DNA of 64,000 bases from a virus. The notes beneath the pieces are model-generated. The model worked only from the letters and a program-made list of their open reading frames with translations. It made no database searches and was not told the DNA's origin. Shown here piece by piece: positions 12,282 to 59,571 of this stretch; position 1 is the first letter of the stretch; every line of letters begins with the position of its first letter. The translations under genes were made by a program, and so were the position numbers. The stretch lies in IMG/VR virus record IMGVR_UViG_3300036792_000176, positions 23,998 through 87,997 of that record; one strand, 5' to 3'.

Positions 12282-14423
12282 ATGAGTATAGCCGATCGTA
12301 CCCGAAACCGCGCGGTTTCGGGCGATTCGGAGGAGCGCCGTGACGCTGCGCTTCTCACTGCAAGGAGGCTAGTTCGCTATGGAATGCCCGTATTTCCAGC
12401 AAGGGTTGATGAAGATGGAAATCCCGACAGAGACGATAGACGATGGGCACGGTGGCAGAGGTACCCTGCAGATATGGATGTACTTGCAGGATACCGCCCC
12501 GGCGACGCACTGGCGGCAGTATGCGGCATCACATTCGATGTCATTGACATCGACCCGAGGAACGGCGGCAAGTTCTCATTCAACAGGATGTCGGATGAGC
12601 TCGGCGACTCGGCTCCAAAAGTGTACGGAATGTCTAAGACGCCGAGTGGCGGAACTCACCTCTACATCGCAGCTCTGGGCATAGGTAGCCATAACGGCTT
12701 TATGCCGGGAATTGACCTAAAGGGTGGATTCCCAGACGGTAGTGGACGTGGCTTTGTATTCATCCCTCCAACCATCCGTCCGGTCAAAGGACACGATGGC
12801 GAAAACGGTGTCATAACAGGCGGATACGCCGAACAGGGCGTACGCATGGGTACGTACAAATGGCTCGAGCAGATGTCGCCCCCAGGAGGAGACTCATCCT
12901 CAGAGGAGATCTCATCCTACATACTGGCAGCCGTAGAAGGATCGCGAACACAGAGACCTACTGGTCAGCATGGTGCGAGGATAACCGCTAATCGGCTACG
13001 GTCTGACTGTATCAAGGCCGAGGCCGGGGGACAGCGCGCAGCCATGCTCCGTTATGTTCACGAGCTAGAGCGCAAGGGCTACGACAAGAATGACATCCTG
13101 GTTCTACTTCGCAGTCTATGCGCAGATATGCCCGTTTACGATGAGCGTCGCCCTTGGTGGCCTGTAAAAGGTCGCAACCCGGACCGAGAGCTGCTGACGC
13201 TGTTCCATCGTAGCGGGACAGTGATACCGGACGCCACCGATGAAGAGCTAAGCATTCTTGAGGGTCCCAGCGTGGCACAGGTTGTGCCGATGGGACTGAC
13301 GCCATTCTCTGAGATAGACCGCGGTCTCAGCAGCTGGCTCTGGAAAAGATACATCGCTGTCGGTGACATAACCATACTGGACGGAGACGCTGGTAATGGT
13401 AAGTCACTGATAACGCTAGACATCGGCGCTCGCGCAACTCGAGGGCGTGAGATGCCGGATGACTCGGACGGGCCTGATTGCTGCTCTGTCCTGCTGCTAG
13501 CGCCAGAGGACAGCGACAAGGTGACGGCTGGACGTCTAGAGGCCGCGAGCGCGGATATGACGCGGATCTTCAGGCCAGCGCTCACCCTGAGGAAGAAGAA
13601 GGGCAACGATGATCCGAAGGCGTACTCTGGGGATGAGCTAGTAACATTCCCAAAGAGCGTCAATAGGCTCAGAAGATGGATCGTAGCCTACGGCATCAAG
13701 CTGATCATAGTTGACCCCATCTCTGCGTTTCTGGGCGAGAAGGTCAACAGCAACAACGACGCGAGCGTCCGCCAGGCCCTGGCCCCTCTGAGCGCAATGC
13801 TATCAGAGGTAGGGTGTAGCGCCATATTCATCCGGCACTACAACAAGGACTCTACCCTCAAGGCGGCGCACCGTGGCGGTGGCTCGGTAGCGTTCGGTGC
13901 GGTATCCCGCGTACAGCTGATCAGTGGCGAGGTACCGGCCGATAAGGCCGAGAAGTTCCAGTGTGAGGGCAAGGTCTTCGGTATAACGCAGGTGAAGAAC
14001 AACCACCTGAACCGTAGGCCAGGATACACGCTAGCGTATACCATTCAGGACAGTGACGTTGTCGCTGACACCGATGGCAACATGGCCCCTATGGTGCGCT
14101 GGCTCGGAGAGCTCACGCTGAGTGCGGACGAGCTAGCTGGCTCCGAGGTTAAGCCGAGACGCGGGCCAGAGCCGATGGTTCAGGATGAGATATCTGAAGT
14201 CATCCAGTCCATGTTCGAGCATCAGGAGGTATGGGACGCCAAGGATGCCGTGAACGAGATAAAGGCGGCGGGTATCTCTGCCAACATGAGTACGGTGAAC
14301 AAGGTGAAGAAGAAGATGGGTATCCGCAGCGTTCCGAGGCGCACGCGGGGTAAGCCTGGAACAACAGGCTGGAACTGGGTAATGGACGTAAAAATGAAGG
14401 TATCTGAAGAGGAAGAAGAATAG
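12282..14423 (+). CDS. Bifunctional primase-polymerase / RepA-like helicase, 713 aa
   Basis: Residues 24-195 form a Prim-Pol domain: the metal-binding Asp pair is in VIDIDP (89/91), and the family SGGTH motif is at 122-126. Residues 335-600 are a RecA-like replicative helicase of the RepA/AAA_25 type: Walker A GDAGNGKS (368-375), LLLAPEDS (about 404-411), Walker B LIIVDP (474-479), and the IFIRHYNKDS segment. A linker leads to a 65-residue winged-helix-like C-terminal domain that recurs as the separate protein at 993. Primase and helicase in one chain would synthesise primers and unwind the phage origin. Start ATG 12282 with GGAGG 12 bases upstream. Confidence 0.9.
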   Translation: MSIADRTRNRAVSGDSEERRDAALLTARRLVRYGMPVFPARVDEDGNPDRDDRRWARWQRYPADMDVLAGYRPGDALAAVCGITFDVIDIDPRNGGKFSFNRMSDELGDSAPKVYGMSKTPSGGTHLYIAALGIGSHNGFMPGIDLKGGFPDGSGRGFVFIPPTIRPVKGHDGENGVITGGYAEQGVRMGTYKWLEQMSPPGGDSSSEEISSYILAAVEGSRTQRPTGQHGARITANRLRSDCIKAEAGGQRAAMLRYVHELERKGYDKNDILVLLRSLCADMPVYDERRPWWPVKGRNPDRELLTLFHRSGTVIPDATDEELSILEGPSVAQVVPMGLTPFSEIDRGLSSWLWKRYIAVGDITILDGDAGNGKSLITLDIGARATRGREMPDDSDGPDCCSVLLLAPEDSDKVTAGRLEAASADMTRIFRPALTLRKKKGNDDPKAYSGDELVTFPKSVNRLRRWIVAYGIKLIIVDPISAFLGEKVNSNNDASVRQALAPLSAMLSEVGCSAIFIRHYNKDSTLKAAHRGGGSVAFGAVSRVQLISGEVPADKAEKFQCEGKVFGITQVKNNHLNRRPGYTLAYTIQDSDVVADTDGNMAPMVRWLGELTLSADELAGSEVKPRRGPEPMVQDEISEVIQSMFEHQEVWDAKDAVNEIKAAGISANMSTVNKVKKKMGIRSVPRRTRGKPGTTGWNWVMDVKMKVSEEEEE

Positions 14424-14430
14424 GTAAACC

Positions 14431-14461
14431 CTAGCCTGCAGTCGCCGAGATAGGGTAGGAT
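14431..14461 (+). promoter_or_regulatory. Promoter with TAGGAT -10 box
   Basis: TAGGAT at 14456-14461 is followed after six bases by ATG 14468, as at 5775. A CCCTAGCC word lies 21 bases upstream of it. This fits a leaderless transcript starting at the ATG of a 24-codon reading frame. Confidence 0.55.
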
Positions 14462-14467
14462 AGGGGT

Positions 14468-14542
14468 ATGACGTACCGTACCGGGGCGACCCCCGAATAC
14501 TGGTGCGACCCCGGTAGGCCGAGAACAGAGGAATACCCATGA
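14468..14542 (+). CDS. Putative leaderless 24-residue leader peptide
   Basis: ATG 14468 lies at the position expected for a transcript start from the TAGGAT box. The frame reads 24 codons and its TGA (14540-14542) overlaps the next ATG as ATGA, the same coupling used by genuine genes here. The peptide carries one Cys and ends TEEYP. It could serve only to load ribosomes onto the next gene, which has just a weak AGAGGAA site of its own. Too short to prove by sequence alone. Confidence 0.45.
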   Translation: MTYRTGATPEYWCDPGRPRTEEYP

Positions 14543-14673
14543 ACTGGCCGTATGAGGAGTGCGAGGTTTGCGGAGGCGCTCTGATGTTCAACGGCGATGA
14601 CTGGATGCACATCAACTCCGGGAAAGACGACACCCTTCACATCCCTTCACCAGACAGGAAGACGAATGCCTAA
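14539..14673 (+). CDS. Small zinc-ribbon-like protein, 44 aa
   Basis: ATG 14539. CEVCGG near residue 8 and two histidines (WMHINSG, LHIP) suggest a half zinc ribbon. It overlaps the next gene by eight bases. Function unknown. Confidence 0.55.
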   Translation: MNWPYEECEVCGGALMFNGDDWMHINSGKDDTLHIPSPDRKTNA

Positions 14674-14902
14674 GATCGAAATCAAGACGCAGATGACTGC
14701 CCAGCAGCTGATCGATCTCATAATGGCGAGCGGGGCTGACCTGAGCAAGCCTGCACAGATCTTCATCGACCTGGGGAACGACGGTGCCGAGTACTATGGC
14801 ATCGGAAAGGTCGAGACCTGCTTCCATCCGGCCAGCAAGGACGACGAGCCCAATCCGTACACGAGCCTCGTTATCGGGCTCGGCGAATTCCACTGCGGGT
14901 GA
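14666..14902 (+). CDS. Hypothetical protein, 78 aa
   Basis: ATG 14666 with GGAAGACG upstream. An amphipathic helix (MTAQQLIDLIMASG) leads into a beta-rich region with FIDLGNDGAEYYGIG. It resembles small phage proteins in which an N-terminal helix packs on a three-strand sheet. No named family. Confidence 0.65.
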   Translation: MPKIEIKTQMTAQQLIDLIMASGADLSKPAQIFIDLGNDGAEYYGIGKVETCFHPASKDDEPNPYTSLVIGLGEFHCG

Positions 14903-28379: not shown

Positions 28380-28453
28380 GGCGGGGTGGAGCAGTTTGGT
28401 AGCTCGCCGGACTCATAATCCGTAGGTCGTCAGTTCGAATCTGGCCCCCGCTA
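28380..28453 (+). tRNA. tRNA with CAT anticodon (Met or lysidine-type Ile)
   Basis: A full cloverleaf is visible: acceptor 28380-28386 with 28446-28452 (one G-T pair), D arm GAGC/GCTC, anticodon loop CTCATAA (28412-28418) on a CGGA/TCCG stem, T arm GTCAG-TTCGAAT-CTGGC, discriminator A. CCA is not encoded. CAT can be elongator Met or, with lysidine, Ile reading ATA, a codon used often in this phage. Confidence 0.9.
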
Positions 28454-28490
28454 CGTGCATCCGCACAATTCCACCCGAGATTGGAATAGA

Positions 28491-29920: not shown

Positions 29921-30126
29921 TGCCAGTTCCAGAGCGCGTGACGGCATCCGTCCGCCCAGAGATATTCGAGGACCTCCGCAAGAGTGTAGAGAGGAATGGG
30001 GTCTCGCAGACGTATATCATAAACCAGGCTATTAAATTGTACGAGTTTGTTGACTCCGAGATCGCTGCTGGTGCAGACATGATACTGCGCCGAGATGGTG
30101 TAGAGAAGCTTATAGAACTGTTCTAG
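29920..30126 (+). CDS. Ribbon-helix-helix DNA-binding protein, 68 aa
   Basis: RVTASVRPEIFEDLRKSVERNG...TYIINQAIKLYEFVD is the Arc/CopG pattern: a strand contacting the major groove, then two helices forming the dimer. Such proteins are repressors or antitoxins; no toxin partner is adjacent, so a regulator is more likely. ATG 29920 overlaps the preceding stop (TGATG), and its own stop overlaps the first base of the next tRNA. Confidence 0.75.
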   Translation: MPVPERVTASVRPEIFEDLRKSVERNGVSQTYIINQAIKLYEFVDSEIAAGADMILRRDGVEKLIELF

Positions 30127-30199
30127 GGGTGTTAGCTCAGCCGGTCAGAGCAGCGGACTCATAATCCGCCGGTCGTGGGTTCGAGCCCCACACACCCCA
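30126..30199 (+). tRNA. tRNA with CAT anticodon (Met or lysidine-type Ile)
   Basis: Complete cloverleaf: acceptor GGGGTGT/ACACCCC, D arm GCTC/GAGC, anticodon stem GCGGA/TCCGC with loop CTCATAA, T arm GTGGG-TTCGAGC-CCCAC, discriminator A at 30199. CCA not encoded. Second CAT tRNA in 2 kb; its GAGCAGCGGACTCATAATC stretch resembles known Ile2 tRNAs as much as Met. Confidence 0.92.
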
Positions 30200-30315
30200 C
30201 AGGGAAGGAGGAAGCCGTATGTGAGCACCTAGATCACACGCCGTGCCTTGCGTGTCGTGCACCACAGCGACGGCAGCGGCATCCTTCTTCCCGCAAGGTT
30301 GCCACGGGATCCCAC
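30200..30315 (+). other. Spacer with an open frame lacking a start codon
   Basis: One frame reads CEHLDHTPCLACRAPQRRQRH, which resembles small actinophage zinc proteins, behind a GGAGGAAG site, but no ATG, GTG or TTG is in place (GTA occupies the expected position). Possibly a decayed gene. Not annotated as coding. Confidence 0.3.
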
Positions 30316-39813: not shown

Positions 39814-40027
39814 TAGTCCTGAGGACGAGCTGAGGGAAGCTACGATCGGACTCGCCAACTCGTACAACTACGTGTGCTCGTTCGGCAATGCGGACGATTA
39901 CGTGAATGAGGAGAACATAACAACCAACACATTCAAGTTCACTCACGATGGCAAGATGTTCAGGGCTACCGTAGTGAAGGAGGGGGATGGTAAAGAAGAA
40001 GAAGTTCTGCAACATGCATCACCATAA
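39806..40027 (+). CDS. Hypothetical protein, 73 aa
   Basis: ATG 39806. Small mixed acidic protein (ATIGLANSYNYVCSFGNADDYVNEENI). It overlaps the polymerase gene by 41 bases. No family recognised. Confidence 0.6.
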   Translation: MPSSPEDELREATIGLANSYNYVCSFGNADDYVNEENITTNTFKFTHDGKMFRATVVKEGDGKEEEVLQHASP

Positions 40028-40925
40028 CACGATGTCATTCGGTGATGGATTCGGAACTGCGAAACAGCATGCAGAGCGCGCCGCTGAGCTAGGGTACCAG
40101 ATCATAGCCGCAACAGACCATGGGAATGTAAGCTCTCATTTCCAGCTAGAGAAGGCAGCCAACAAGGTAGGTCTGAAGGCGGTCTTCGGAGTGGAGGCAT
40201 ACTGTGGGTCTGTGGACCCGGATACGAGGACGCAGTTCAAGAATCACCTCACAATTCTCGCCATGGATGCCGGAGGGTACCGAAGTCTCAACCGAATCGT
40301 CACACAGTCATGGCGGGACTATTACTATCACCCAACGGTCAGCGAGACCTCGCTACGTGATAACAATGACGGTCTCATCGTCCTATCTGGATGCTCTGGA
40401 AGCAGGCTGGCTTGCGCAATGCTTGGAGGAAAGGGCACAGAAGAACATAACGACACTCCTGACCTTGAGGCGGCGGCATTCGTCGTCGAGCAGTACCAGG
40501 CAATCTTTGGGGAGAGATATTATCTAGAGATTCAGCCGTTCTATGAGCTTGAGCGTAGCTGTACCATGAATCAGTCATACGTTCAGCTTAGCCAGTGGTT
40601 CGATATCCCCCTCGTGGTTACGCACGACGTCCATTACCCGCGGATGGAAGACGCCGAGATGCAGGCAGTCCTCCATGCCGCGAGGCGCGGCGGTGATAGC
40701 GTTGACGACGCTATGCGCAAGTGGAATTACGACGTGCCGCTAACCCTACCGTCCAAGGACAGCCACCTAGCATCTCGCCTGATGAAGACCGGCCTGAGCC
40801 GCGAGGACGCATGGCAGGCCATAGAGAACAGCGAGTACGTAGCCAGCCTATGCAACGTAACGCTGCCTAAGGCTGAGCGCCTACGCTACCCCGTCGCCGA
40901 GAAGGACCTGGAGCCATGGACATAG
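39987..40925 (+). CDS. DNA polymerase III alpha subunit, N-terminal PHP part of a split enzyme, 312 aa
   Basis: MHHHNTMSFGDGFGTAKQHAERAAELGYQIIAATDHGN and GLKAVFGVEAY match the PHP domain that opens DnaE. Later segments (VTHDVHY, AWQAIENSEYVASLCNVTLPKAERLRYPV) continue the normal DnaE order up to the FPVP region. The frame then stops at 40925, and the polymerase continues in a separate gene at 41601. ATG 39987 with GAAGGAGGGGG. The two parts would have to assemble as a complex. Confidence 0.85.
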   Translation: MVKKKKFCNMHHHNTMSFGDGFGTAKQHAERAAELGYQIIAATDHGNVSSHFQLEKAANKVGLKAVFGVEAYCGSVDPDTRTQFKNHLTILAMDAGGYRSLNRIVTQSWRDYYYHPTVSETSLRDNNDGLIVLSGCSGSRLACAMLGGKGTEEHNDTPDLEAAAFVVEQYQAIFGERYYLEIQPFYELERSCTMNQSYVQLSQWFDIPLVVTHDVHYPRMEDAEMQAVLHAARRGGDSVDDAMRKWNYDVPLTLPSKDSHLASRLMKTGLSREDAWQAIENSEYVASLCNVTLPKAERLRYPVAEKDLEPWT

Positions 40926-41352: not shown

Positions 41353-41650
41353 GGTAGCGCCGGGAAAATCTGGCAAAGTCGGCATAACAGATGAAGAGCT
41401 AGAGATCTTCATGCCTCAACTAGATGCTGCATGGAAGGTGATTGATAGCTGGCCACTAGGACAGCCGATGAAGGACATGGCTGCGCTCATAGTTCTCAAG
41501 GTTATTGCAGTCACATCGAAGCAGCTCGACGATGTCGGTGTGTACGGTAGGCTAGAGCGTAGAGCTACCGGTGTTCGGGACGAAATGATGGAGAAAGCGT
41601 ATGCCGACAAAGCAGCTATCGAGTTCACTGACGACTGCGGTTTCTTCTGA
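41342..41650 (+). CDS. Helical protein inside the split polymerase locus, 102 aa
   Basis: ATG 41342. Helical product (LEIFMPQLDAAWKVIDSWPLGQPMKDMAALIVLKVIAVTSKQ) with no catalytic motif. It ends 50 bases inside the second polymerase gene. Function unknown. Confidence 0.6.
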   Translation: MPRRVAPGKSGKVGITDEELEIFMPQLDAAWKVIDSWPLGQPMKDMAALIVLKVIAVTSKQLDDVGVYGRLERRATGVRDEMMEKAYADKAAIEFTDDCGFF

Positions 41651-43979
41651 AGACCTGATATGGCAATGGTGCCGATTCGGCTGGACATTCCGTGGCATCG
41701 GCAAGCGCCCCCAAGAGCAAAAGGACTGGTATGTCTCCCGTCTGAAGTACGAGATGGGTCTCATCATCAGCAAGGGTTTTGCAGACTTCTTCCTGGTCAC
41801 AAGTGACATGGTTCGCTGGGCTAAGGATTACCGGGGCCCGGAGGCTCCGCACGGTATACCCGTAGGGCCCGGACGCGGTAGCGTCGCGGCTAGCGTCGTC
41901 GCCTGGATGCTGAGGATAACGGAGGTCGATCCTGTACGGTACCCCAACCTCCTATTCGAGAGGTTCCTTGATATCACCAGGTCCGATCTTCCTGATATCG
42001 ACCTGGACATATCTGACGAGCATAGGTATCTCGTCCGTGACTATATGGCAAAGAGGTACGGGCAAGATTGCGTTGGGAGCGTCGCAAACTTCGTCCGGTA
42101 TCGAGGTAAGAATAGCCTGGCCGACGTAGCACGGGTGTATGAAGTCCCCAGCTACGCGAAGGAGGTAGTGAGCAACCTGATCATTGAGCGATCAGGCGGA
42201 GACTCACGATTCGACTCCGGGCTAGAGGATACTGTGAATATGTTCCCGGCCGCCAAAGAGATATTCGACGCTTACCCCAAGCTCTGGCAGGCTACGCGCC
42301 TCGAGGGCAACGTACGCGGCATGAGCGTTCACGCCGCCGGGCTGATCGTTACCCAGACCCCTCTCACAGACATATGCGCCGTGTACGAGCGCGAGGCCGC
42401 CGGTGAGATCCGGCAGGTGCTTAGCATCGACAAGTATGACGTTGAGTACGCCGAGATGATCAAGATGGACCTTCTCGGGCTTAGCACTATGGGAGTTATA
42501 GCTAACTGCCTTGAGATGACAGGACTAACCCTGGAGGATCTTTATGGTATACCAGATGATGACCCTAAAGCGCTGGCGGTATTTCGCAACGGTGACGTCA
42601 CAGGGATATTTCAGTTTGAGGGCCGGGCGACCAGGCTGGTCAACAGGGATGTACATCCTGATAATTTCTCCGAGGTCACCGATATCAACGCGCTATCACG
42701 TCCGGGTCCGCTTTTCTCCGGTACCACCGCAGAATATTGCGACGTCAAGCACGGCCGTCGTGAGCCCGAACGATACCACCCCCTCGTCACTGATATCACA
42801 GCTCACACAAAGGGCCAGATCATATACCAGGAACAGATCCTGCAAATTGTACGTGATGTGGGAGGATTCGACTGGACCCACGCAGTCGAGATACGACGAA
42901 TCATCAGCAAGAAGATGGGTGAGGCCGCATTCGGCGTTTCGATGGGAGCGTTCGTAGAGGGGGCAGCAAGGCTACATGGAATCGATGAACACACCGCAGA
43001 CAGAATCTGGAAGCGTCTCGTCACTAGCGGCACTTATGCTTTTGTCTATGCTCACTCCGTCAGTTACTCTATCCTTGGACTATGGTGCGCCTGGCTCAAG
43101 GCACACTATCCTCTTGAGTTCTATGCCGCCCACCTCGCGAAGACGGAAGACGCCGAGCAGCGATTCAAGCTGATGAGAGACGCCCAGGCTCACGGCATAA
43201 CGATAATGCCGCCCGTTCTCAATTGGAGCGGCAAGAGCTGGAAGCCAGTCCGAAAGATGAATAGCCTAGTAGCGGGCTGGCGCGAGATACCGGGCATAGG
43301 CGAGAAGACTGCCGACAACATAGCCAAGTTCAGAGAGGAGAACGGTAAGTTCCGTAGCTGGGGTCAGCTTCAGGAGATCAAGGGAATTGGCCCAAAGACT
43401 GTAGATAAGATGTACGCATTTTCCACATCAAATGATCCATTCGGACTTAAGATCACCGGTCAGCGCCTAGAGCGAGTGCGCAAGTTCATAGAGACCAATA
43501 ATAAATTCGCAGAGGAGATGTTCGCCGAAGGATCATTCAAGCAGCAGACGGCAAGGGTCCCGGTTCCTACGCATAATGGAGCTGAGGTAGCGGCGATACA
43601 CATCAAGGAGGAATATGGAGCCAACGCCAAGAAGAACTATGGCAAGGGACCACGCGTTGTTTATATGGGTATTGTACGCGAGAGAAACATGCAGGATGCC
43701 GTCGAGAACCGACGATCGCGTACTGGCGAGGAAGCAGAAGATATTCTCGCCAGCCTATACCGACCGGATCTCCTCAGCTATTGCTCGCTACGCTGTATCG
43801 ATACCACGGAAGAGGAGGTCTACATACGAGTCAATCGTTTCGTATTCCCTCGCGTCAAGAAGAAGATCCAGTCAATCGTAGAGGGCCGCGACGTTATCAT
43901 ATGTGTGGGCCAGCGTATAGCCGGTTTCGGCACCCCGGTAATGGCCGACGAGATATACATAATCGATCCAGACGATTAG
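41601..43979 (+). CDS. DNA polymerase III alpha subunit, catalytic part of a split enzyme, 792 aa
   Basis: The chain resumes where the PHP gene stops: KYEMGLIISKGFADFFLVTSDMVRWAK, GPGRGS (89-94) and the catalytic PDIDLDI (131-137) of the C-family palm. The fingers and thumb regions follow, with YQEQILQI and YAFVYAHSVSYSILG. A helix-hairpin-helix tandem (IPGIGEKTADNI...IKGIGPKTVDKM) and an OB-like C-terminus complete it. It is the phage's replicative polymerase, presumably paired with the PHP protein at 39987 and the DnaQ-like exonuclease. ATG 41601 with GGAG upstream. Confidence 0.9.
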   Translation: MPTKQLSSSLTTAVSSEDLIWQWCRFGWTFRGIGKRPQEQKDWYVSRLKYEMGLIISKGFADFFLVTSDMVRWAKDYRGPEAPHGIPVGPGRGSVAASVVAWMLRITEVDPVRYPNLLFERFLDITRSDLPDIDLDISDEHRYLVRDYMAKRYGQDCVGSVANFVRYRGKNSLADVARVYEVPSYAKEVVSNLIIERSGGDSRFDSGLEDTVNMFPAAKEIFDAYPKLWQATRLEGNVRGMSVHAAGLIVTQTPLTDICAVYEREAAGEIRQVLSIDKYDVEYAEMIKMDLLGLSTMGVIANCLEMTGLTLEDLYGIPDDDPKALAVFRNGDVTGIFQFEGRATRLVNRDVHPDNFSEVTDINALSRPGPLFSGTTAEYCDVKHGRREPERYHPLVTDITAHTKGQIIYQEQILQIVRDVGGFDWTHAVEIRRIISKKMGEAAFGVSMGAFVEGAARLHGIDEHTADRIWKRLVTSGTYAFVYAHSVSYSILGLWCAWLKAHYPLEFYAAHLAKTEDAEQRFKLMRDAQAHGITIMPPVLNWSGKSWKPVRKMNSLVAGWREIPGIGEKTADNIAKFREENGKFRSWGQLQEIKGIGPKTVDKMYAFSTSNDPFGLKITGQRLERVRKFIETNNKFAEEMFAEGSFKQQTARVPVPTHNGAEVAAIHIKEEYGANAKKNYGKGPRVVYMGIVRERNMQDAVENRRSRTGEEAEDILASLYRPDLLSYCSLRCIDTTEEEVYIRVNRFVFPRVKKKIQSIVEGRDVIICVGQRIAGFGTPVMADEIYIIDPDD

Positions 43980-45771: not shown

Positions 45772-46033
45772 GGCGTCCGAACCCGGGCCCTAGCCGTTCC
45801 GCCGCCCGGCGATTTACTCTCCGTACGTGCGAGCTCCATAGGGTTTCCAGAGGGTCCCCGTCCGGCCGCGCTACCCCTCCGCCCGGCCGAATTATAACGA
45901 TTCTATTACGGGGTAACGAAACGATATACTGCACCCCTACCTAGCGGAGTAGCGTCACGTCTTGCAAGACGCGCTGCAGTGGCACCCAGCCCCGGTAACG
46001 AGTCGGCGCGTTCCTTCTTAGAATGGACAGGAA
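45772..46033 (+). promoter_or_regulatory. Promoter and leader of the LysM/Rpf-like gene
   Basis: No gene is present. TATACT at 45925-45930 is the likely -10 box, giving a leader of about 97 bases that contains the small hairpin CGTCTTGCAAGACG (45958-45971). The second GAGCTCC copy of the third paired element lies at 45831. Confidence 0.5.
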
Positions 46034-46912
46034 ATGTTCGGGAACATCTTTACCAGGAGTGTCCGTAGCATGCTCGGCATGCTCGGGATCGTCGGTGTGA
46101 CGATCGTGACCATGGTGATGCTAGCAACGTCAGCCATGGGCAGCCTCGCAATGAATGGTCCGTCTTCGTACAACGAGGAACAGGTGCAGGTTGCTGTGGC
46201 TCCGGCCTCCCACAGCACACTGGCCAAGACGGTCGCATTCCAGATGTCAGCTCTGGCAAGGGCCGCTCACAGCATGTCGGCGGCTACAGCTCCCGTCCTC
46301 GTTCACCTGCCGAGCATCTACCGTGTGAAATCCGGCCAGAGCCTATCGAGCATAGCAGCCGCGGTGTACGGCAACAGCAAGGCATGGACGGCCATCTACT
46401 GGGCCAACAAGAACACCATCAAGTACGCGAACATCGTCTACGTCGGGCAGGCCCTCAGCATTCCGGCGATGCCCGCGTCAATCCCCGCCCCTCCCTCGCA
46501 GCTCTCACCACCGGCTCCCCCGGCTCCCCCGGCTCCCCCGGCTCCGCCCCAGCCCAAGGTTATCCTGGCGTCGGACAACGACAGCGACAGCACCCCCTCG
46601 CACACCTCGTCGTACGTGCCGCCGCAGCCGGCACAGGCTCCCGCCCCTGCTCCAGTCACGTCCAGTAACTACAGCGTTAACTCCTCGTTCCAGGCATGCG
46701 TGATACGCGCTGAGTCCGGCGGCAACGCCCAGATCTGGAATGCCAGCGGGCACTACGGACTGTACCAGTTCAGCGAGCAGACCTGGGTCGCGTACGGCGG
46801 TAACGCCGGAGACTTCGGTCACGCCTCGGCGGCCGAGCAGACGCAGGTGTTCGACAACGCGATGGCGACGGCCGGTGGTGCGAACAATTGGGCACCGTAC
46901 GACGGCTGCTAG
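46034..46912 (+). CDS. Membrane-anchored or secreted LysM / Rpf-like transglycosylase, 292 aa
   Basis: An N-terminal hydrophobic segment (residues 13-38, LGMLGIVGVTIVTMVMLA) works as signal or anchor. Residues 95-145 are a LysM peptidoglycan-binding domain (YRVKSGQSLSSIAAAVYG...YVGQALSIP). A Pro/Ala linker of about 75 residues follows. Residues 222-292 match the transglycosylase-like domain of resuscitation-promoting factors: CVIRAESGGNAQIWN (Glu in ESGGN catalytic), GHYGLYQFSEQTWVAYGG and a closing Cys. It would cut wall glycan from outside. Possible roles are release, exclusion or waking dormant host cells. Own promoter, strong terminator. Confidence 0.85.
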   Translation: MFGNIFTRSVRSMLGMLGIVGVTIVTMVMLATSAMGSLAMNGPSSYNEEQVQVAVAPASHSTLAKTVAFQMSALARAAHSMSAATAPVLVHLPSIYRVKSGQSLSSIAAAVYGNSKAWTAIYWANKNTIKYANIVYVGQALSIPAMPASIPAPPSQLSPPAPPAPPAPPAPPQPKVILASDNDSDSTPSHTSSYVPPQPAQAPAPAPVTSSNYSVNSSFQACVIRAESGGNAQIWNASGHYGLYQFSEQTWVAYGGNAGDFGHASAAEQTQVFDNAMATAGGANNWAPYDGC

Positions 46913-46930
46913 TCAGCAGCCCAAACGCTG

Positions 46931-46964
46931 AAGGCCGGCCACCCAGCCCCGGGTGGTCGGCCTT
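46931..46964. terminator. Bidirectional terminator between the two halves of the window
   Basis: AAGGCCGGCCACCC (46931-46944) pairs with GGGTGGTCGGCCTT (46951-46964) with one mismatch. It ends the rightward genes and, 15 bases from the last codon of the leftward endolysin-like gene, also the leftward transcript. Confidence 0.9.
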
Positions 46965-46979
46965 CTCTATGCCCTAAAT

Positions 46980-47738
46980 TCAGGCGGTTGTCTTGCCTGC
47001 TATCTTGTACGGCGGAGTCCAGTCCGCAGTCTCCGAGCTGACCCGCTTCGACTCGCAAAGCTCGCCGGACGAGTCGGTGCCTACCGCGTAGAGGTTGCCA
47101 GCCTTATCGGTATACACCCCGCACACCTTGATCGGGATGGCCGAGAATGTCATGGCGGGCTTCGGGGCCGGGGCCGGGGCCGGGGTGACCGTCGCCTTCT
47201 TCGACACGTTCTCCGCCCACGGGGTAGAGAACACATTGACATCGTACGTGCCTTCGTCCCCAAACTGCCACCCGACTATCGGGAACGGGCCGCCGCTGTT
47301 CTCCACCATCGCGGTAGCCTGGGCCTGCGTCACGCCCCACTTCGCTACCACGAGGCCGACGCCCGAGGTAACCCCGCCACTCACCAGTGCGTTGCACACC
47401 GGTGTGAGGTTGCTGTAGCTCGCGTAGATGGCCGGTGATCGCTGCCCGGGGCGTACGGCCTTTTCGAAGTTTGCCTTGGCAGCCTGGGCCCATTTGGCGA
47501 GATCCGCCAGGGTAGCCGCGCCAGCCTCATAGTCGAGGTAGTCAGCCGTCTCATCGATATTCGTTAGGACGGGACTCTGGTCGATGCGCAGACAGTTGGG
47601 GTTGGCGTCGAGCTGCGCGGCGGTGGCGATGATGTCAGAGCTGCCGGTTACGTAAAGGGCTCTGATGCGACCGTCGTTTGGCACGAGATGTAGATTGGCG
47701 CTTATGGCGTCGTAACCGACCTGGGTTGCTACTGACAT
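46980..47738 (-). CDS. GH25-like (DUF1906) glycoside hydrolase, endolysin candidate, 252 aa
   Basis: GYDAISANL near residue 8, LRIDQSP near 50, YLDYEAG, PAIYASYSNL and IVGWQFGDEGTYDVNVF match the TIM-barrel pattern of GH25-like/DUF1906 proteins, with acidic residues at strand ends. The C-terminal 75 residues follow an Ala/Pro-rich linker and form a small separate domain, possibly wall-binding. Position next to holin-like membrane proteins supports a lysis role, cleaving host peptidoglycan. It is the last gene of the leftward transcript. Confidence 0.7.
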   Translation of the reverse strand: MSVATQVGYDAISANLHLVPNDGRIRALYVTGSSDIIATAAQLDANPNCLRIDQSPVLTNIDETADYLDYEAGAATLADLAKWAQAAKANFEKAVRPGQRSPAIYASYSNLTPVCNALVSGGVTSGVGLVVAKWGVTQAQATAMVENSGGPFPIVGWQFGDEGTYDVNVFSTPWAENVSKKATVTPAPAPAPKPAMTFSAIPIKVCGVYTDKAGNLYAVGTDSSGELCESKRVSSETADWTPPYKIAGKTTA

Positions 47739-48175
47739 GCTGTCTCCTGAGTTTGCTCGGGCACTGTGTACTGCATTGTTTGTCCAGTCGCCAGTAAGCA
47801 GCGGTACTCTTTGCCAAGAGTAACGAATGCCTCATAGAACTGGTATGAGGAAACCCTTGACGGGTTCGCTCCAGGATTCGGGGGCTTAGGTACCGGTGCC
47901 GATGTGACCAGACTTACAACGCCACATAGCTGGTGATTGGACTGTGCTATGGATGCTGCTATCGCCTCCTGCTCTGCTCTTTGTATTGCGGCCAGAGCCT
48001 GCCTCTGTGCCTTCGCCGTGGTTGCCGCTGACTTTGACACAGCTTGATCAGCACGCCATCCAGACACGAAGTAGTCACCGATGAGGGCCGCGAGGATGGT
48101 GATCACGATGATCATCGATGCAACTATTACTACTGTTCCCCTGGACATCCTCTCTGATATGGACGTCCTATTCAA
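47729..48175 (-). CDS. Membrane protein of the lysis region, 148 aa
   Basis: TTG 48175. One N-terminal membrane segment (GTVVIVASMIIVITILAALIG), then a helical stretch rich in Ala and Gln and a cysteine-bearing C-terminal part (CGVVSLV...YRC). One membrane span with a long outer domain suits a spanin-like or holin-accessory protein. Overlaps the endolysin candidate by ten bases. Confidence 0.65.
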   Translation of the reverse strand: MNRTSISERMSRGTVVIVASMIIVITILAALIGDYFVSGWRADQAVSKSAATTAKAQRQALAAIQRAEQEAIAASIAQSNHQLCGVVSLVTSAPVPKPPNPGANPSRVSSYQFYEAFVTLGKEYRCLLATGQTMQYTVPEQTQETACQ

Positions 48176-48405
48176 GGTCTGGCTCCATTTCGACGATCCT
48201 TGTCATGGTCTTCCAGGATGAGGACACGGCTATCGAGATTGCTGAATTTGGTAGACAGGTCCTTGATGTCTTTGCTGAGCTGAATAGTCGCATTCGTATT
48301 GCTATCTGTACTGCTAATCCAACGGAATATTGCGCGAGCGACTATCACAACCGCAGTACAGAACGCAACAACTCCGCCCAAGCTGCCAAGTACGGCAAAT
48401 ATCAC
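48172..48405 (-). CDS. Holin-like protein, 77 aa
   Basis: GTG 48405 with GGGAGAAGGGG upstream; the frame is open further but without a ribosome site. A single strong membrane segment (residues 4-28) is followed by a polar helix that can form a coiled coil (LSKDIKDLSTKFSNLDSRVLILEDH) and a basic end. Size, topology and position beside the endolysin candidate fit a holin or holin-associated protein. Confidence 0.65.
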   Translation of the reverse strand: MIFAVLGSLGGVVAFCTAVVIVARAIFRWISSTDSNTNATIQLSKDIKDLSTKFSNLDSRVLILEDHDKDRRNGARP

Positions 48406-48442
48406 TTCCCCTTCTCCCTGCTCGGTTAATCTGCGGATATTG

Positions 48443-48736
48443 TCACTGTCCAGCCCAGTACTGCGATAGCTCCTGGTTGAAGTCGAAGTCGGTAGGCTGT
48501 GATGCACTACCGAAGTACACTTGTGCTACAGTGTTGAGGTAGCTTATGGCAGCCAGAGCGGTGGTCGCGTCCTCGGCGCTATACCCGATCGCCTCCAGCG
48601 ATGCTTGTCCACCACCTTGCCCATTGATCTGAATCGACAGATTGATGCACTTCTGCATGATATTGCGCATTGATACCGAGAGGTCGGTTATCGAGCTGTT
48701 GATTGTCGCCGTACTTGCCTGTGATCCTACGGTCAC
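48443..48736 (-). CDS. Small structural-type protein, 97 aa
   Basis: GTG or ATG start at 48736 overlapping the large tail gene by four bases. Helical product (SSITDLSVSMRNIMQKCINLSIQINGQG...AAISYLNTVAQVYFG) of a type repeatedly found behind actinophage tail genes. Likely a minor virion or tail-tip component; exact role unknown. Confidence 0.7.
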   Translation of the reverse strand: MTVGSQASTATINSSITDLSVSMRNIMQKCINLSIQINGQGGGQASLEAIGYSAEDATTALAAISYLNTVAQVYFGSASQPTDFDFNQELSQYWAGQ

Positions 48737-54690: not shown

Positions 54691-57600
54691 TTACTTGTTT
54701 CTTCCGAATGCTGCCTGGACATTTCCGCCACCCTTGACCCGTACATTATTGCGTATCCACTCGAGCATGAACTGGTCAAATGTCTGGTTACCACTAGAGC
54801 CAATCTCGAAGACAATGGGAACGGAATCATTGGGCCCTATAACCCGCTCTGGCTTGCCTGTCCCGTTGTAGGCCATCGTTAGACCAGGCTTTAGCCAGCC
54901 ACCATTGTCGTACCAGTTGTACTGCTGTTCGTGGGCAGCCGCTCCTATAGGACCGCCGTAGCTGGACGCCATGTAGTCCCACATCCACATGATCTGCGTA
55001 CGCGGGTCGCTAGAGCCACCGGCCCAAGAAGGCCATGCGGCCTTTGGCATCTTGTTGTACGGCAGCGCCTGCGCTATTCCGTACGCACCCGAGGTCGGGT
55101 TGTCCGCGTACTGGTTCCACCCGGACTCTCGCATGGCCACGTAGTTCCATGCGCTCCATATCGAGGGGTCGCTAGTGTACTGCGGGTATATCATCTTGGC
55201 TAGAAGGGCGTTCGCAGAAGGTGACCCGCCGCCGGTTGCTCCGGTAGCGCTACCCGGCCCAGCGGTGCCTGCGTTAACGGCATTCTGCAGAACTTGCTTC
55301 CAGTAATCAACGCTCTGGTGGCCGAATCCTAGAACGGTCTTCTCAGCCCAGTTCTGCGATATGGCAGATGCCCAGTTCTCGGGTCCAGCTAGATTTATCG
55401 GGCCGCCGCTAGCGTACTTTCCGTGGTTGATAGCATCAAGGAATCCGTATCCGTACTTCTTGACAGCGTCGGCTTGTATCATGTATTCGCCGTTGCTGGC
55501 CCATATGAGATTCTTGTCTTCCTTCGGACCGCCCGCACCCCAGATCGGACCGCCACCAGCCTTGAAGTCGATCATGTCGCTGATCTTCTGGTCGGCCGCA
55601 GTACCGCTAGCTGTGATCACGCCGCTACCGGCTACGGCTAGCCTGACGCTTACCGTGGTGCCATGTAGCGCATTTATAGCCGCCTGAAGTTTAGGTAGCG
55701 AATGCTGCCAGAGATAGTCAGTCTGGCTCTTCGTGAGACCAAGGGAGTCTTCGGCGAACGCATAAAACTCACCCTTGGCCAGAGTTACATTTCCGGTAAG
55801 GTGATAGAGGGAGTTGGCAAGGTTGTACGCGCTACCTTGATCCTTCTCAATATTGCTCTTGTTATTCAGGACTGCGGTAGCAAACTGATCGAATACCTTC
55901 TGTCCACCGGTGGCCTGGAATATAGCCGCCGCCATTGCATTATTCAGTGTCGTGCCAAGAGCTGTCGATAGGTTCTGTACGTCTTTGATTAGGTTTGCAG
56001 AGTCGTCTGTCAATTGGGTCGTTATGTTGTCAAGATTCTGCATCGGGTCTTTAGTCTTCCCGACCCACTGTGTCAGGGCCTTGAAACTATCCACGCCCTG
56101 GTATCCCGCTTGCTGCGCAAGACCGTACAGGATATCGGTGAGTGCCTTGCTACCCTTGGCGGCAGGCAGGAGCATCTGCACCATATCCTTGCCGGCCTGG
56201 GTGAGCATATCGGTGCCCTTCTGTCCCAGTCCAGCCGCACCAGCAAGGGTGTACAGATTGTTGTACTCTGTCTGTGCAGCTTGGGCTGCAGATACTATGG
56301 ATCCTCTTAGCGCAATATTGCTCTGCCAGAGCCCTGTGGCGTTGCCCTTAGCAGCCTTGCTGTCTACCGATACTGTCTGCAGTGCCTGCGAGAACGCTAC
56401 AAATCCAGACTCTCCTGACGTTAGCGTTCCGAAGAATGCACTCCATCCTCCGGTGACCCTTGATATGTCAGATGCTGTCTGCAGGCTAGCAAAGTCAATC
56501 GCATTGATGCTGTTTGTGAGAATGCCACCCTGTACACTTATGTTCTTGTACCCGGTTATGAGGTTGTTTACCTTCTGCTTCTGAAGATCGAAGTTATCTC
56601 CGGACTTTACCCCGGCAAGGTCCATGAGAGCCCATGCCTGGGACACAGAGTACCCTTGCTTTACAAGATATCCGGTCTCCTGGAACAAATATGTCTGCGA
56701 CTGAGTGAGATTCTCTATTGCTTTCTTGTAGGTCTGGACATCCTTAGTGGCCTGCCCCATTGCTGCACCGGTTGACAGGTATCCGGGGTCGAAGATGCCC
56801 TTGAATACATCTCCGAGGGCCGCGAGCTGGTGCCCAAGGGATACCGATGTATTGAATGTCATGCCGATGTTGTGCCCAAGGAACTGTACTTCGTTTCCGG
56901 CCTCGTTGAATGCGCTAGACCATCCCTTCCACTGCTGCAGAACATTAGCTGTGCTAACCGTATTGATCTGATTGTTGAGCTGTCCTATCGCGCCGGATAT
57001 TCCAGCTATGGCAGATCCGCCGCTAAGCTGGTTGAGCGCATCATTGATATTCGCTATGTTGGCAACGACAGACCTATCCGCCGCATTCCACGCCTTGACA
57101 AGCTCGTACGTTCCTAGCGCCATCAGGCCTAGTGCAGGATTATGGGCCACCTGGACGATTAGTTCGCCAACTGCCTTTATTGGCCCGCCCATGAGCCCGA
57201 ATCCCCTGCTCATGTTCACGAGAAGGCCACCCAGAACGCTACCCCACACGTACATGGAGTGCATCCCCAGTCCAATCTTGACGATCGGACCGGGAAGCTG
57301 CGAGACAACATCAAGAAGTTTAGCGCCAGCACCAAGTATGTCCAGGAGGAAGTGAGCGGTGCCGGGGTCGTCCTTGACCAAATGGTCTATCGCACCACCA
57401 AGGCTAGCCATTACATGGACCCACTGTCCCAGGAAGCCTATGCTAGCATTCATGAGGCCGTTTATGCCACCCTGCTTGCTCGACCATATGTCAAGCTTTG
57501 CGATCCAGTCATCGAACATGTTGACAACTGTTTTGGCGGCATCGGCATATGCGCCGGTCTTTTGGTTTACCAGGTTGAGCGCTCCGCCGTAAAACTCGAT

Positions 57601-59016
57601 GGTCTGGGGAGCCATAGCCTTGGAGAGGGCATTAAACTGGCCGGTCAGAGGAGGAAGCGACTGGCCCAATGCTAGTGATACATCGTTGGTGGAGGTAAGA
57701 TTGGTGAATAGGTCAGTTGCAGTTTTGACCATAACAGAGATCCCGGCGCCAGCTGCTATCATAGCACCGCCGACTGACAGAAGAGTCTCCATGATGCCAT
57801 CTAGTGCTACATGCCATAGACCGACACCACCGATAGTTCCGCCAAGGATACCGCCGAACCATCCGAAGCCACGCCCCGCGACTATTCCGCCTCTTCCTGC
57901 AGCCCCGCCAGCAGCAGCCAGACCGAATAGGCCGCCGCCTCCACCGCCCGCGCCGCCAGCCGCAGCATTTGCTGCGAACAGAAGACGGTTGAATGCACTA
58001 CCTGCAACGCCAGCGCCGTAAGCCGCGTACGCCCCGAAGTTGCTGAATGCTGTTCGCCCCTTGCCGACCATAAGGTTGAACAGATCATTCATGGGGTTAA
58101 GCAAGTTGAAGTATACCGCATTGCTGATATCGTTGAATGACGGGATGCTAGCGTTGCGAAGATTCCGGTAAGCGCCACCAAGATTAGCGGCCGCATTTAT
58201 CGCAGCACCCTGCATCTCGCCAACAAGAAACTGTAGCACACGATAAGAGCCTGTAGCGCCGTTTATCATGGAGTTCCAGATGTCGGCACCCGCAGGCATA
58301 GCGAAGAAGGCGTTGTACCTTTCCTGCAAATTCTTTAGCGCATCGGCAAGGTTGTTGAAGGAGGAATCTGCCTTGTCTGAGTAAGCCCCGAACCCCTGGA
58401 AATCCTCGCCAAGATTTCTGGTCTCGGTCCCAACCTTGCCCATGGTAAGGCCGAGGGCGTTCATGGCCGCGTCAACATCACGGATCTTATTCATCACATC
58501 TGGGTCTATGGTGAATCCAAACTTCTCGCTCAGATTCTGTGTCGGCCCAAATGTTGGGATATTACCAACATCAAATGTAACCGGGATATGCTCTGTCATA
58601 CCCCCTATCTTCTCAAGCTGGACCCTAAGTGAAGAGTCGTTTACGTTGAAATCAAGGATGTCACTGATTCCAGCCTGATTTATTAGGCGCTTCAGGAGCA
58701 TCAGCTGGGTAGTTATTCTACCGGGCGTGATGTTTATATCTGCTATGTCAGCGATGCCGAGGGACTGTATCTTGGCCTTCATGGCCATGAGGGATGACCC
58801 CATATCGCTTGTGTCTATCTTCCCAAAGGTCATCCCCTTCATCTCATCGTTAAGCTTCTCCATCTTATCTACGGCATCATTGACGCCAGAGCTAAGATTG
58901 TCTGTGTTTATTCCATTAGCCGCCCTCTTCAGCATCTCCATATCAGCTAGGGCACGGGCGAATGCCGGGCCACCGGTATAGTTGGCCTTGATCAGGATCT
59001 CAACTTCATTCGCCAT
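54691..59016 (-). CDS. Tape measure protein with C-terminal lytic transglycosylase domain, 1441 aa
   Basis: Length, long helical stretches, a hydrophobic Gly/Ala part around residues 340-440 and position after the frameshifted chaperones identify the tape measure, which sets tail length. The C-terminal part (LAKMIYPQYTSDPSIWSAWNYVAMRESGWNQY..., GAYGIAQALPYN) is a transglycosylase SLT-type domain for local wall digestion during DNA entry. ATG 59016; an in-frame GTG at 59022 would add two residues. The start overlaps the end of the frameshift product. Confidence 0.93.
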   Translation of the reverse strand: MANEVEILIKANYTGGPAFARALADMEMLKRAANGINTDNLSSGVNDAVDKMEKLNDEMKGMTFGKIDTSDMGSSLMAMKAKIQSLGIADIADINITPGRITTQLMLLKRLINQAGISDILDFNVNDSSLRVQLEKIGGMTEHIPVTFDVGNIPTFGPTQNLSEKFGFTIDPDVMNKIRDVDAAMNALGLTMGKVGTETRNLGEDFQGFGAYSDKADSSFNNLADALKNLQERYNAFFAMPAGADIWNSMINGATGSYRVLQFLVGEMQGAAINAAANLGGAYRNLRNASIPSFNDISNAVYFNLLNPMNDLFNLMVGKGRTAFSNFGAYAAYGAGVAGSAFNRLLFAANAAAGGAGGGGGGLFGLAAAGGAAGRGGIVAGRGFGWFGGILGGTIGGVGLWHVALDGIMETLLSVGGAMIAAGAGISVMVKTATDLFTNLTSTNDVSLALGQSLPPLTGQFNALSKAMAPQTIEFYGGALNLVNQKTGAYADAAKTVVNMFDDWIAKLDIWSSKQGGINGLMNASIGFLGQWVHVMASLGGAIDHLVKDDPGTAHFLLDILGAGAKLLDVVSQLPGPIVKIGLGMHSMYVWGSVLGGLLVNMSRGFGLMGGPIKAVGELIVQVAHNPALGLMALGTYELVKAWNAADRSVVANIANINDALNQLSGGSAIAGISGAIGQLNNQINTVSTANVLQQWKGWSSAFNEAGNEVQFLGHNIGMTFNTSVSLGHQLAALGDVFKGIFDPGYLSTGAAMGQATKDVQTYKKAIENLTQSQTYLFQETGYLVKQGYSVSQAWALMDLAGVKSGDNFDLQKQKVNNLITGYKNISVQGGILTNSINAIDFASLQTASDISRVTGGWSAFFGTLTSGESGFVAFSQALQTVSVDSKAAKGNATGLWQSNIALRGSIVSAAQAAQTEYNNLYTLAGAAGLGQKGTDMLTQAGKDMVQMLLPAAKGSKALTDILYGLAQQAGYQGVDSFKALTQWVGKTKDPMQNLDNITTQLTDDSANLIKDVQNLSTALGTTLNNAMAAAIFQATGGQKVFDQFATAVLNNKSNIEKDQGSAYNLANSLYHLTGNVTLAKGEFYAFAEDSLGLTKSQTDYLWQHSLPKLQAAINALHGTTVSVRLAVAGSGVITASGTAADQKISDMIDFKAGGGPIWGAGGPKEDKNLIWASNGEYMIQADAVKKYGYGFLDAINHGKYASGGPINLAGPENWASAISQNWAEKTVLGFGHQSVDYWKQVLQNAVNAGTAGPGSATGATGGGSPSANALLAKMIYPQYTSDPSIWSAWNYVAMRESGWNQYADNPTSGAYGIAQALPYNKMPKAAWPSWAGGSSDPRTQIMWMWDYMASSYGGPIGAAAHEQQYNWYDNGGWLKPGLTMAYNGTGKPERVIGPNDSVPIVFEIGSSGNQTFDQFMLEWIRNNVRVKGGGNVQAAFGRNK

Positions 59017-59571
59017 CGTCACCCTCCTCTTCGTCTTCTATGTGCCCTAGCTGATGGATCTTCAGCATGCTTATGATGCCGGCTTCCTCTTGCCTTACCT
59101 GACTAGGTAGCGCCTTGAATCTGTCACAAAGCCCTATGATAAGCTCGGCATCCTGGAGCTCTTTCGGCTTTGTTACTACACGCCCAGACCGAGTGATTCT
59201 TCCAGCGAATCGCTTCCATTCGCGGAGTCTTTTCCCAGGTCATCTGAGACCCCGGCCATGGCGCTCTGCCACTGGGATAGAATCTCCCTTATGACAGGCT
59301 GCTCCTGGTCGGCGCATCCCTCGACGGTGTGAGGCGTTGGCGTGCCATCCTTGTTCTCGAGATTCCACTCGACCAGATAGTCGAGGAACCTCTGCAGAAC
59401 CTTGTCATTGTTGTCTGCCACTTCCTGGCCGGTGGACGCCTTCCAGCGAAGCATCTCGTTGAACTCTGATATGGTGCACGAGCCAACCCTGACCTTGAGT
59501 CCATCCAGCCAGGACCCCTTCTCGAACTTGAGGGTGTACACGGTCGGCTCTGGGCGGAATCCCATTCTCAT
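59006..59571 (-). CDS. Tail assembly chaperone GT, -1 frameshift product, 188 aa
   Basis: Reading the chaperone gene from 59571, a -1 shift at GGGAAAA (59236-59230) continues into a frame that stays open for 74 codons and ends at 59006 within the tape measure start. The added part is mainly helical and ends in an acidic tail (ELQDAELIIGLCDRFKALP, then DEEEGDDGE). This is the G/GT arrangement of long-tailed phages, where both forms hold the tape measure during assembly. Confidence 0.88.
59176..59571 (-). CDS. Tail assembly chaperone G, 131 aa
   Basis: The unshifted product from ATG 59571 ends at 59176. It lies between the tail tube and tape measure genes as expected, is acidic at the C-terminus and has a WLDGLKVRVGSCTISEFNEMLRW core. 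It shares the first 114 residues with the frameshift form. Confidence 0.88.
   Translation of the reverse strand: MRMGFRPEPTVYTLKFEKGSWLDGLKVRVGSCTISEFNEMLRWKASTGQEVADNNDKVLQRFLDYLVEWNLENKDGTPTPHTVEGCADQEQPVIREILSQWQSAMAGVSDDLGKDSANGSDSLEESLGLGV
59230..59236 (-). other. -1 frameshift slippery heptamer GGGAAAA
   Basis: In the chaperone frame the codons read G-GGA-AAA, the ideal X-XXY-YYZ arrangement, 52 bases before the zero-frame stop. Both tRNAs can re-pair after slipping back one base. Confidence 0.9.

Follow-up and report, generated by a model that had tools for sequence, protein, structure and literature searches.

Upstream of a gene that a clade of soil actinophages carries between its replication arm and its convergent tail arm, we found a conserved promoter-like element whose repeat fits published binding sites of the actinobacterial regulator MtrA. 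From the domains, predicted fold, conserved glutamate, synteny, downstream hairpin, promoter element and fit to MtrA sites, we propose that the product is an exported, LysM-anchored, Rpf-type (resuscitation-factor-like) lytic transglycosylase, whose expression is controlled separately, by an MtrA-like regulator of the host, a proposal that we consider evenly balanced between right and wrong. The DNA analyzed (the window) is a stretch of 64,000 nucleotides, positions 23998-87997 of the 88-kb virus record IMGVR_UViG_3300036792_000176.

The gene (46034-46912, + strand) encodes 292 aa, and all of its parts given below lie on the same strand. The first-pass annotation had read it as LysM plus a resuscitation-factor-like enzyme, and profile searches confirmed this: the LysM domain (residues 96-144; 46319-46465), modeled at high pLDDT, scored 22.1 bits with PF01476 against a cut-off of 20.9, and the Transglycosylas/Rpf family PF06737 matched residues 223-286 with 39.5 bits against a cut-off of 27, inside a catalytic domain that profile, alignment and fold place at residues 216-292 (46679-46909). 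A Pro/Ala-rich linker, evident from the sequence, lies between the two domains (residues 151-212; 46484-46669). Near the start is a hydrophobic signal-like segment (residues 16-32; 46079-46129), a helix of low pLDDT in the model, and the protein is probably secreted or exported. GC at the three codon positions was 0.57, 0.55 and 0.80 across 46034-46912, which is a coding signal. GC3 was also high in the ORF facing the gene (0.78), compared with 0.52-0.65 in nine other genes measured.

A profile scan of IMG/VR gave 78 distinct loci. Pooled with earlier finds and the window, these made 89 sources, from which eight loci of contigs already present and three (L025, L055 and L102) that have no ORF with the catalytic model were removed, so that the set compared also numbered 78; one locus, L022, was kept by hand, and near-identical contigs (e.g. 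L064-L067) were each counted. Of the 78 viral loci, 22 have an NlpC/P60 ORF, either fused to the gene or located downstream of it in the same orientation; three of these 22 were used to build the model. The only fused case of the 22 is L052:4686-6011, in which LysM, Rpf-type and NlpC/P60 domains form one ORF. In an alignment of 50 viral sequences chosen from the 78 loci, the window included, Glu227 (codon 46712-46714), the Glu of an ESGG motif, was kept in 50/50; from the Rpf literature, we take this residue to be the catalytic one. Cys292 was present in 50/50 sequences and Cys222 in 48/50, and the two form a possible disulfide. The first cysteine is shifted by four residues: it stands five residues before the Glu here, whereas in four aligned phage Rpf domains it directly precedes the Glu. 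Against six relatives, dN/dS of the catalytic domain was 0.15-0.21 at a dS of 0.94-1.70, which is near saturation, and this indicates that the domain is under purifying selection. The N-terminal part and the linker were the least conserved regions of the protein.

In the predicted model (mean pLDDT 73), the LysM and catalytic domains were of high confidence and the remainder was not. Foldseek with the whole model returned no match at or below 0.001, with RpfC, RpfE and RpfB among the best matches listed. VIA-align of the model gave Z 11.1 for the RpfB catalytic domain (2.0 Å over 74 residues), 10.4 for RpfC, 10.3 for RpfE and about 8.5 for C-type lysozymes; RpfB, RpfC and RpfE were the top structural matches of the C-terminal part, which would have an Rpf fold according to the model. 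The NCBIfam equivalogs for Rpf (46.8 of the 180 needed, from residues 49-144) and RpfC (25.1 of 200) both fell below their cut-offs. Because PF06737 passed and the NCBIfam Rpf equivalogs were missed, we use the label 'Rpf-type' and not 'Rpf'. By its domains, the protein would be a lytic transglycosylase.

On the + strand of the window, genes that family and profile searches could name were mostly replication genes, as far as a dnaE-like gene (41601-43979) that served as syntenic anchor, and the stretch running from 64000 down to 46980 on the − strand contains tail genes together with three small lysis-like ORFs. The LysM/Rpf-type ORF sits between these two arms. Profile searches left many of the phage ORFs without a family, and some of the neighboring ORFs, which were chosen by length, may be spurious. 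The tape-measure ORF (54691-59022, − strand) has its own transglycosylase domain (54910-55161; residues 1287-1370 of the stretch searched; phrog_12661, E 4.3e-15), so the phage carries at least two such domains. DNA polymerase III alpha is split into two ORFs (39987-40925 and 41601-43979) with small ORFs between them, and a separate N-terminal ORF ahead of dnaE was also seen in relatives L020, L023, L024, L026, L027 and L052. There are two tRNA-Met genes with anticodon CAT (28380-28454 and 30126-30200), and to the left of the window, in the same record, an ORF on the − strand (L124:2100-2747; record 14100-14747) has a signal-like start and looks ricin-B-lectin-like by eye. No exact overlap was found between the two record ends. 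Integrase profiles (PF00589, PF00239) had no match in seven phage records, possibly incomplete, so lysogenic conversion gained no support from these records.

Gene order among the relatives indicates that the enzyme is a syntenic gene of the clade. A dnaE search returned 20 loci, including 11 close kin (58-88% identity), nine of which reach beyond dnaE; L028 and L029 end inside it and were excluded from the synteny count. In eight of the nine, the + arm ends with a LysM ORF of the same kind, which faces the − arm. The ninth, L025, lacks the gene and has an ORF on the − strand that is amidase-like by eye, and nine more distant dnaE loci (L030-L038) showed no match to either model. In L023, L024 and L027 an NlpC/P60 ORF follows the LysM ORF on the + strand, and in L026 the C-terminal part has diverged. 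The ORF at the same place in L022 (L022:4909-5736) has a hydrophobic start and LysM, and its C-terminal part gave only sub-threshold SLT matches, perhaps a domain swap that would keep the enzyme class. Two further kin with dnaE, L052 and L075, were found via the enzyme itself and stand outside the eight of nine; L046, whose contig starts just before the ORF and which has a member of the Rv2525c-type cluster behind it on the − strand, was counted with the clade.

Facing the gene is a convergent ORF of 252 aa (46980-47738, − strand), at the position where relatives have Rv2525c-like (L021, L022, L024 and L027) or GH25-type (L020 and L023) genes. It had no Pfam lysin family match, and its low-confidence model (mean pLDDT 58) had no significant structural match; the viral scan confirmed no relatives for it, yet L019 carries one at 69%, likewise with no family match. 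Two small ORFs follow on the same strand, one with a hydrophobic N-terminal segment in what by eye is a lysis-like context (47729-48175) and one with a hydrophobic segment that is holin-like by eye (48172-48507; phrog_1009, of unknown function). The earlier claim that the gene lies opposite to the lysis genes holds for these convergent ORFs (46980-48507), but the cassette is putative, its 46980-47738 ORF matching no Pfam lysin family. The gene has a predicted peptidoglycan-cutting domain, as an endolysin would; it is not in an operon with the small membrane ORFs (putative holins) but convergent to them, with a hairpin between. This 15-bp hairpin (46930-46965), which we propose as terminator, lies in a 76-nt stretch that folds at -41.9 kcal/mol (z -5.96), and 0/200 shuffles folded as well. 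No T-run follows it, and a consensus terminator scan missed it, reporting 46981-46999 as its sole + strand site. The first-pass annotation had assigned the gene a terminator of its own.

A promoter of its own had likewise been assigned to the gene. A sigma-70 scan found no site upstream (three sites in 5.1 kb, against a shuffle mean of 3.0), but a conserved promoter-like element is present there. Clade comparison and pattern search revealed an MtrA-like box, the 11-bp-phased direct repeat RTWAC-N6-RTWAC (45894-45909, + strand), with a third half-site GTAAC beside it (45913-45917, + strand), and, 55 bp from the repeat in the window, a conserved GTAGCGT (45949-45955, + strand) as the proposed -10 region (TAGCGT, 45950-45955). 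Short blocks were common to the upstream regions of nine clade members, and longer shared blocks occurred only in the pairs window/L019 and L022/L024. The repeat was found upstream of the gene in 11 of the 12 clade loci (the window and 10 of the 11 others), and so was GTAGCGT; L026 has GTAGCGT and no repeat, and L021 has the repeat with GTAGGTT. From the repeat to GTAG[CG][GT]T the spacing was 53-55 bp in eight loci and 42-44 bp in three, one helical turn apart. The ORF start followed GTAGCGT by 58-98 bp; L020 and L052 were exceptions, the start chosen by the ORF caller there being probably upstream of the true one. A candidate conserved GCTGCA behind the -10 region was rejected, being present in 5/12 clade loci only.

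We then used a loose pattern, RTNAC-N6-RTNAC, made from published MtrA sites, which were read after the repeat had been seen. It occurred upstream in 11/12 clade loci, compared with 0.97% of 4000 random 300-bp windows from the same loci, and half-sites at spacings of 0-15 other than 6 occurred in at most 3/12. The 12 loci are related, so this conservation does not amount to 12 independent events. The repeat is also present in L046, L052 and L075, three of the 12 that were not part of the set from which it was first recognized. The 64-kb window contains the strict pattern once and the loose pattern five times; a further repeat, in the record's left part (L124:5277), has no GTAGCGT at the right distance. 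Across IMG/VR, the strict composite element was found in seven contigs, four clade members and three unrelated. L025 lacks the repeat as well as the gene, but its + strand carries dnaE and its − strand tail-like ORFs. Upstream of the 66 other viral homologs, the loose pattern was present in eight and absent from 58, against about 1.9 expected at 0.029 per 300 bp; because L003, L085 and L088, which share an upstream stretch with GTAAC-N6-ATCAC on the reverse strand and belong to another phage lineage, are alike and may be one lineage, we do not claim this excess. None of five isolated-phage homologs had the loose pattern upstream.

All three published MtrA sites share the 11-bp period of the phage repeat: (A/G)TAACAATttn(A/G)TAACAAT in C. 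glutamicum (PMC3353115), G/T-T-G/A-A-C-C-N5-G-T-G/T-A-C-N in S. coelicolor (PMC5650626), and c-G-T/A-n-A-C/T-c twice with four bases between in M. tuberculosis (PMC6265350). The pattern was drawn from these three species. Passages of three papers report rpfA, rpfB, rpfC, ripA, rpf2, nlpC and mepA as MtrA targets (PMC11215152, PMC6265350, PMC3353115), and one places an S. coelicolor MtrA site, at whiI, at -69 to -53 (PMC5650626), near the place predicted for the phage repeat. We name MtrA as candidate because the repeat matches and the reported targets include wall-enzyme genes. No OmpR-type DNA-binding domain (PF00486) was found in seven phage records (this phage and six relatives, possibly incomplete), which makes a host protein the simplest candidate binder. 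In two actinobacterial genomes (G001 and G002), none of 25 strict-site loci had a LysM, NlpC/P60 or Rpf ORF when profile models were run on ORFs with GC3 above 0.75. A DPBB lytic-transglycosylase gene began 150 bp past one strict site, which itself fell within another predicted ORF, and a sub-threshold M23 match followed a second site at 25 bp. The pattern outnumbered its reversed control in G002 (19 against 3), whereas G001 showed no enrichment (11 against 19). Among the titles listed in a literature search we found none on phage genes controlled by MtrA, and the phage passages of PMC5487470 concern integration sites only; nor did we find a report of a phage Rpf-like gene under such control, phage Rpf-like proteins themselves being known. 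The pattern match suggests that a host MtrA-like regulator may control the phage gene.

In the mechanism we propose, host MtrA, or a related OmpR-type regulator, would occupy the 11-bp-phased repeat, roughly 48-60 bp ahead of the transcription start (predicted near 45962 in the window), and host RNA polymerase, aided by the regulator, would transcribe the gene from its own promoter until stopped at the hairpin, ahead of the convergent tail/lysis arm. The product would leave via the Sec pathway, LysM would hold the enzyme on glycan strands and the Rpf domain would cut glycan, leaving the infected cell with a loosened, growth-type wall that may favor production and later lysis. The first-pass suggestion that a separately controlled enzyme remodels the wall agrees with what domains, fold, synteny and promoter element show. 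A function entirely separate from lysis fits less well with the endolysin annotated near the distant homologs of the isolated phages BRock and GiJojo and with the lack of a match to four canonical lysin families in this record. For the suggested effect on dormancy and spore germination, the MtrA-like control site is the one, indirect, line of support, MtrA being a controller of host rpf genes (PMC11215152, PMC6265350). The timing of wall enzymes in phages usually follows the phage's own early/late programme. That this lytic-looking clade has put an Rpf-type enzyme under host MtrAB, and reads the host's wall and growth state outside such a programme, seems to us a credible idea that falls somewhat short of even.

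The main rival is that the enzyme acts in lysis: as a secreted lysin, in an accessory or even the principal role, it would cut glycan and complete the breakdown of the wall alongside the product of the convergent gene and the small membrane proteins. The 88-kb record had no match to the four canonical lysin families searched (Amidase_2, NlpC/P60, GH25 and Rv2525c-like), the sole close relative without the gene has the amidase-like ORF, the third gene behind the BRock and GiJojo homologs is annotated as endolysin, and the 22 viral loci with an NlpC/P60 partner also agree with a lysis role. We nevertheless think it rather unlikely, given the gene's own promoter-like element and hairpin, its opposite strand in this clade, and the relatives L020 and L023, which keep it beside a GH25-type gene. 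Alternatively, the secreted protein could wake neighboring resting cells or spores and so make them infectable, as the Rpf-type catalytic domain and the MtrA-like control would allow, MtrA being a regulator of host rpf genes in passages of PMC11215152 and PMC6265350. In Rhodococcus infected by phage WC1, expression of four of the six host rpf genes goes up, which the authors suggest prevents dormancy (PMC10986025). A LysM domain, however, suggests retention on the producing cell's wall, and PF06737 membership alone is no proof of resuscitation, the NCBIfam Rpf and RpfC cut-offs having been missed; we consider a dormancy breaker improbable. We give still far less credence to a virion-associated entry enzyme. 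Rpf-like motifs do occur in tape-measure proteins, and another tape-measure hydrolase motif aids infection of stationary cells (both in passages of PMC1796659), but this gene lies outside the structural arm and begins with a signal-like segment, and the tape-measure ORF already has a transglycosylase domain.

A separate question is whether the upstream element belongs to MtrA at all. It could instead be bound by an unrecognized regulator of the phage, or serve replication or packaging where the two arms meet, and we regard this as a substantial possibility, though not the favored one. The protein that binds cannot be read off a repeat pattern by itself, 11-bp repeats serve other regulators as well, and the many phage ORFs without a family match leave room for such a regulator. 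A GlnR-type pattern, however, was found upstream in 0/12 clade loci; the repeat is absent along with the gene in L025, which has both arms; and the distances from the repeat to GTAGCGT and the start codon are nearly constant, all of which argue against this alternative.

Cellular homologs were surveyed in 296 actinobacterial genomes, 65 of which matched the profile at 1e-10, some of them by LysM alone; among the ORFs inspected, LysM preceded an Rpf-type domain in 11. The MtrA-like pattern was found from -300 to +60 in 0/20 cellular ORFs (two pairs being the same gene). The idea that the phage acquired gene and promoter together from cellular LysM-Rpf genes such as these was therefore rejected. 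A full-length tblastn at 1e-5 had no match among 50,697 phage records or in plasmids; with the catalytic domain alone, at 0.01, 22 phage records matched, and five were inspected.

An MtrA-like repeat at the gene's own promoter, shared by nearly all close relatives examined, suggests that wall remodeling by the phage may be tied to host state. If so, the phage would sense host physiology through a borrowed binding site of a host two-component system, sharing the control of host rpf and NlpC/P60 genes and remodeling the wall in step with the host's state, and this would provide a practical way into the question of how phages cope with resting cells of actinobacteria.

Among known systems, M. tuberculosis RpfB, RpfC and RpfE resemble the phage protein in predicted fold (Z 10.3-11.1), the Glu in ESGG and the C-terminal Cys, but the phage protein has an N-terminal LysM and misses the NCBIfam Rpf cut-offs. 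The profile of phrog_4602 'transglycosylase' spans both domains, the LysM part ahead of the catalytic one as in our protein (residues 80-286 to 21-215 of 220, E 2.7e-9); its category, however, is 'other', and the window protein had no full-length tblastn match among phage records. BRock gp43 and GiJojo gp174, from Streptomyces phages, are by eye small signal-led Rpf-type domains with LysM, but their LysM stands behind the Rpf domain, the annotated endolysin is nearby and no MtrA-like pattern lies upstream. Streptomyces phage Patelgo gp18 'hydrolase' also lies outside the lysis genes, on the strand opposite to the endolysin, but shows no LysM in the alignment and has glycosyltransferases and tRNAs as neighbors. 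Mycobacterium phage prophi79-1 gp102 'resuscitation-promoting factor' is another phage-borne Rpf domain, in this case a short RpfC-like protein adjoining terminase, with no LysM in the alignment. Cellular LysM-Rpf proteins of Actinobacteria (L125-L134 and L136) have the same order of LysM, linker and C-terminal Rpf-type domain, but end in GWGAWP-C or similar where the viral proteins end in YDGC, and have no MtrA-like pattern upstream. The MtrA regulon of Actinobacteria, in turn, shares the RTnAC-N6-RTnAC repeat upstream of a wall-enzyme gene, which here is a putative site and lies on a phage. The protein thus adds a member to a kind already known from phages and actinobacteria, and what is new is its conserved MtrA-like control element.
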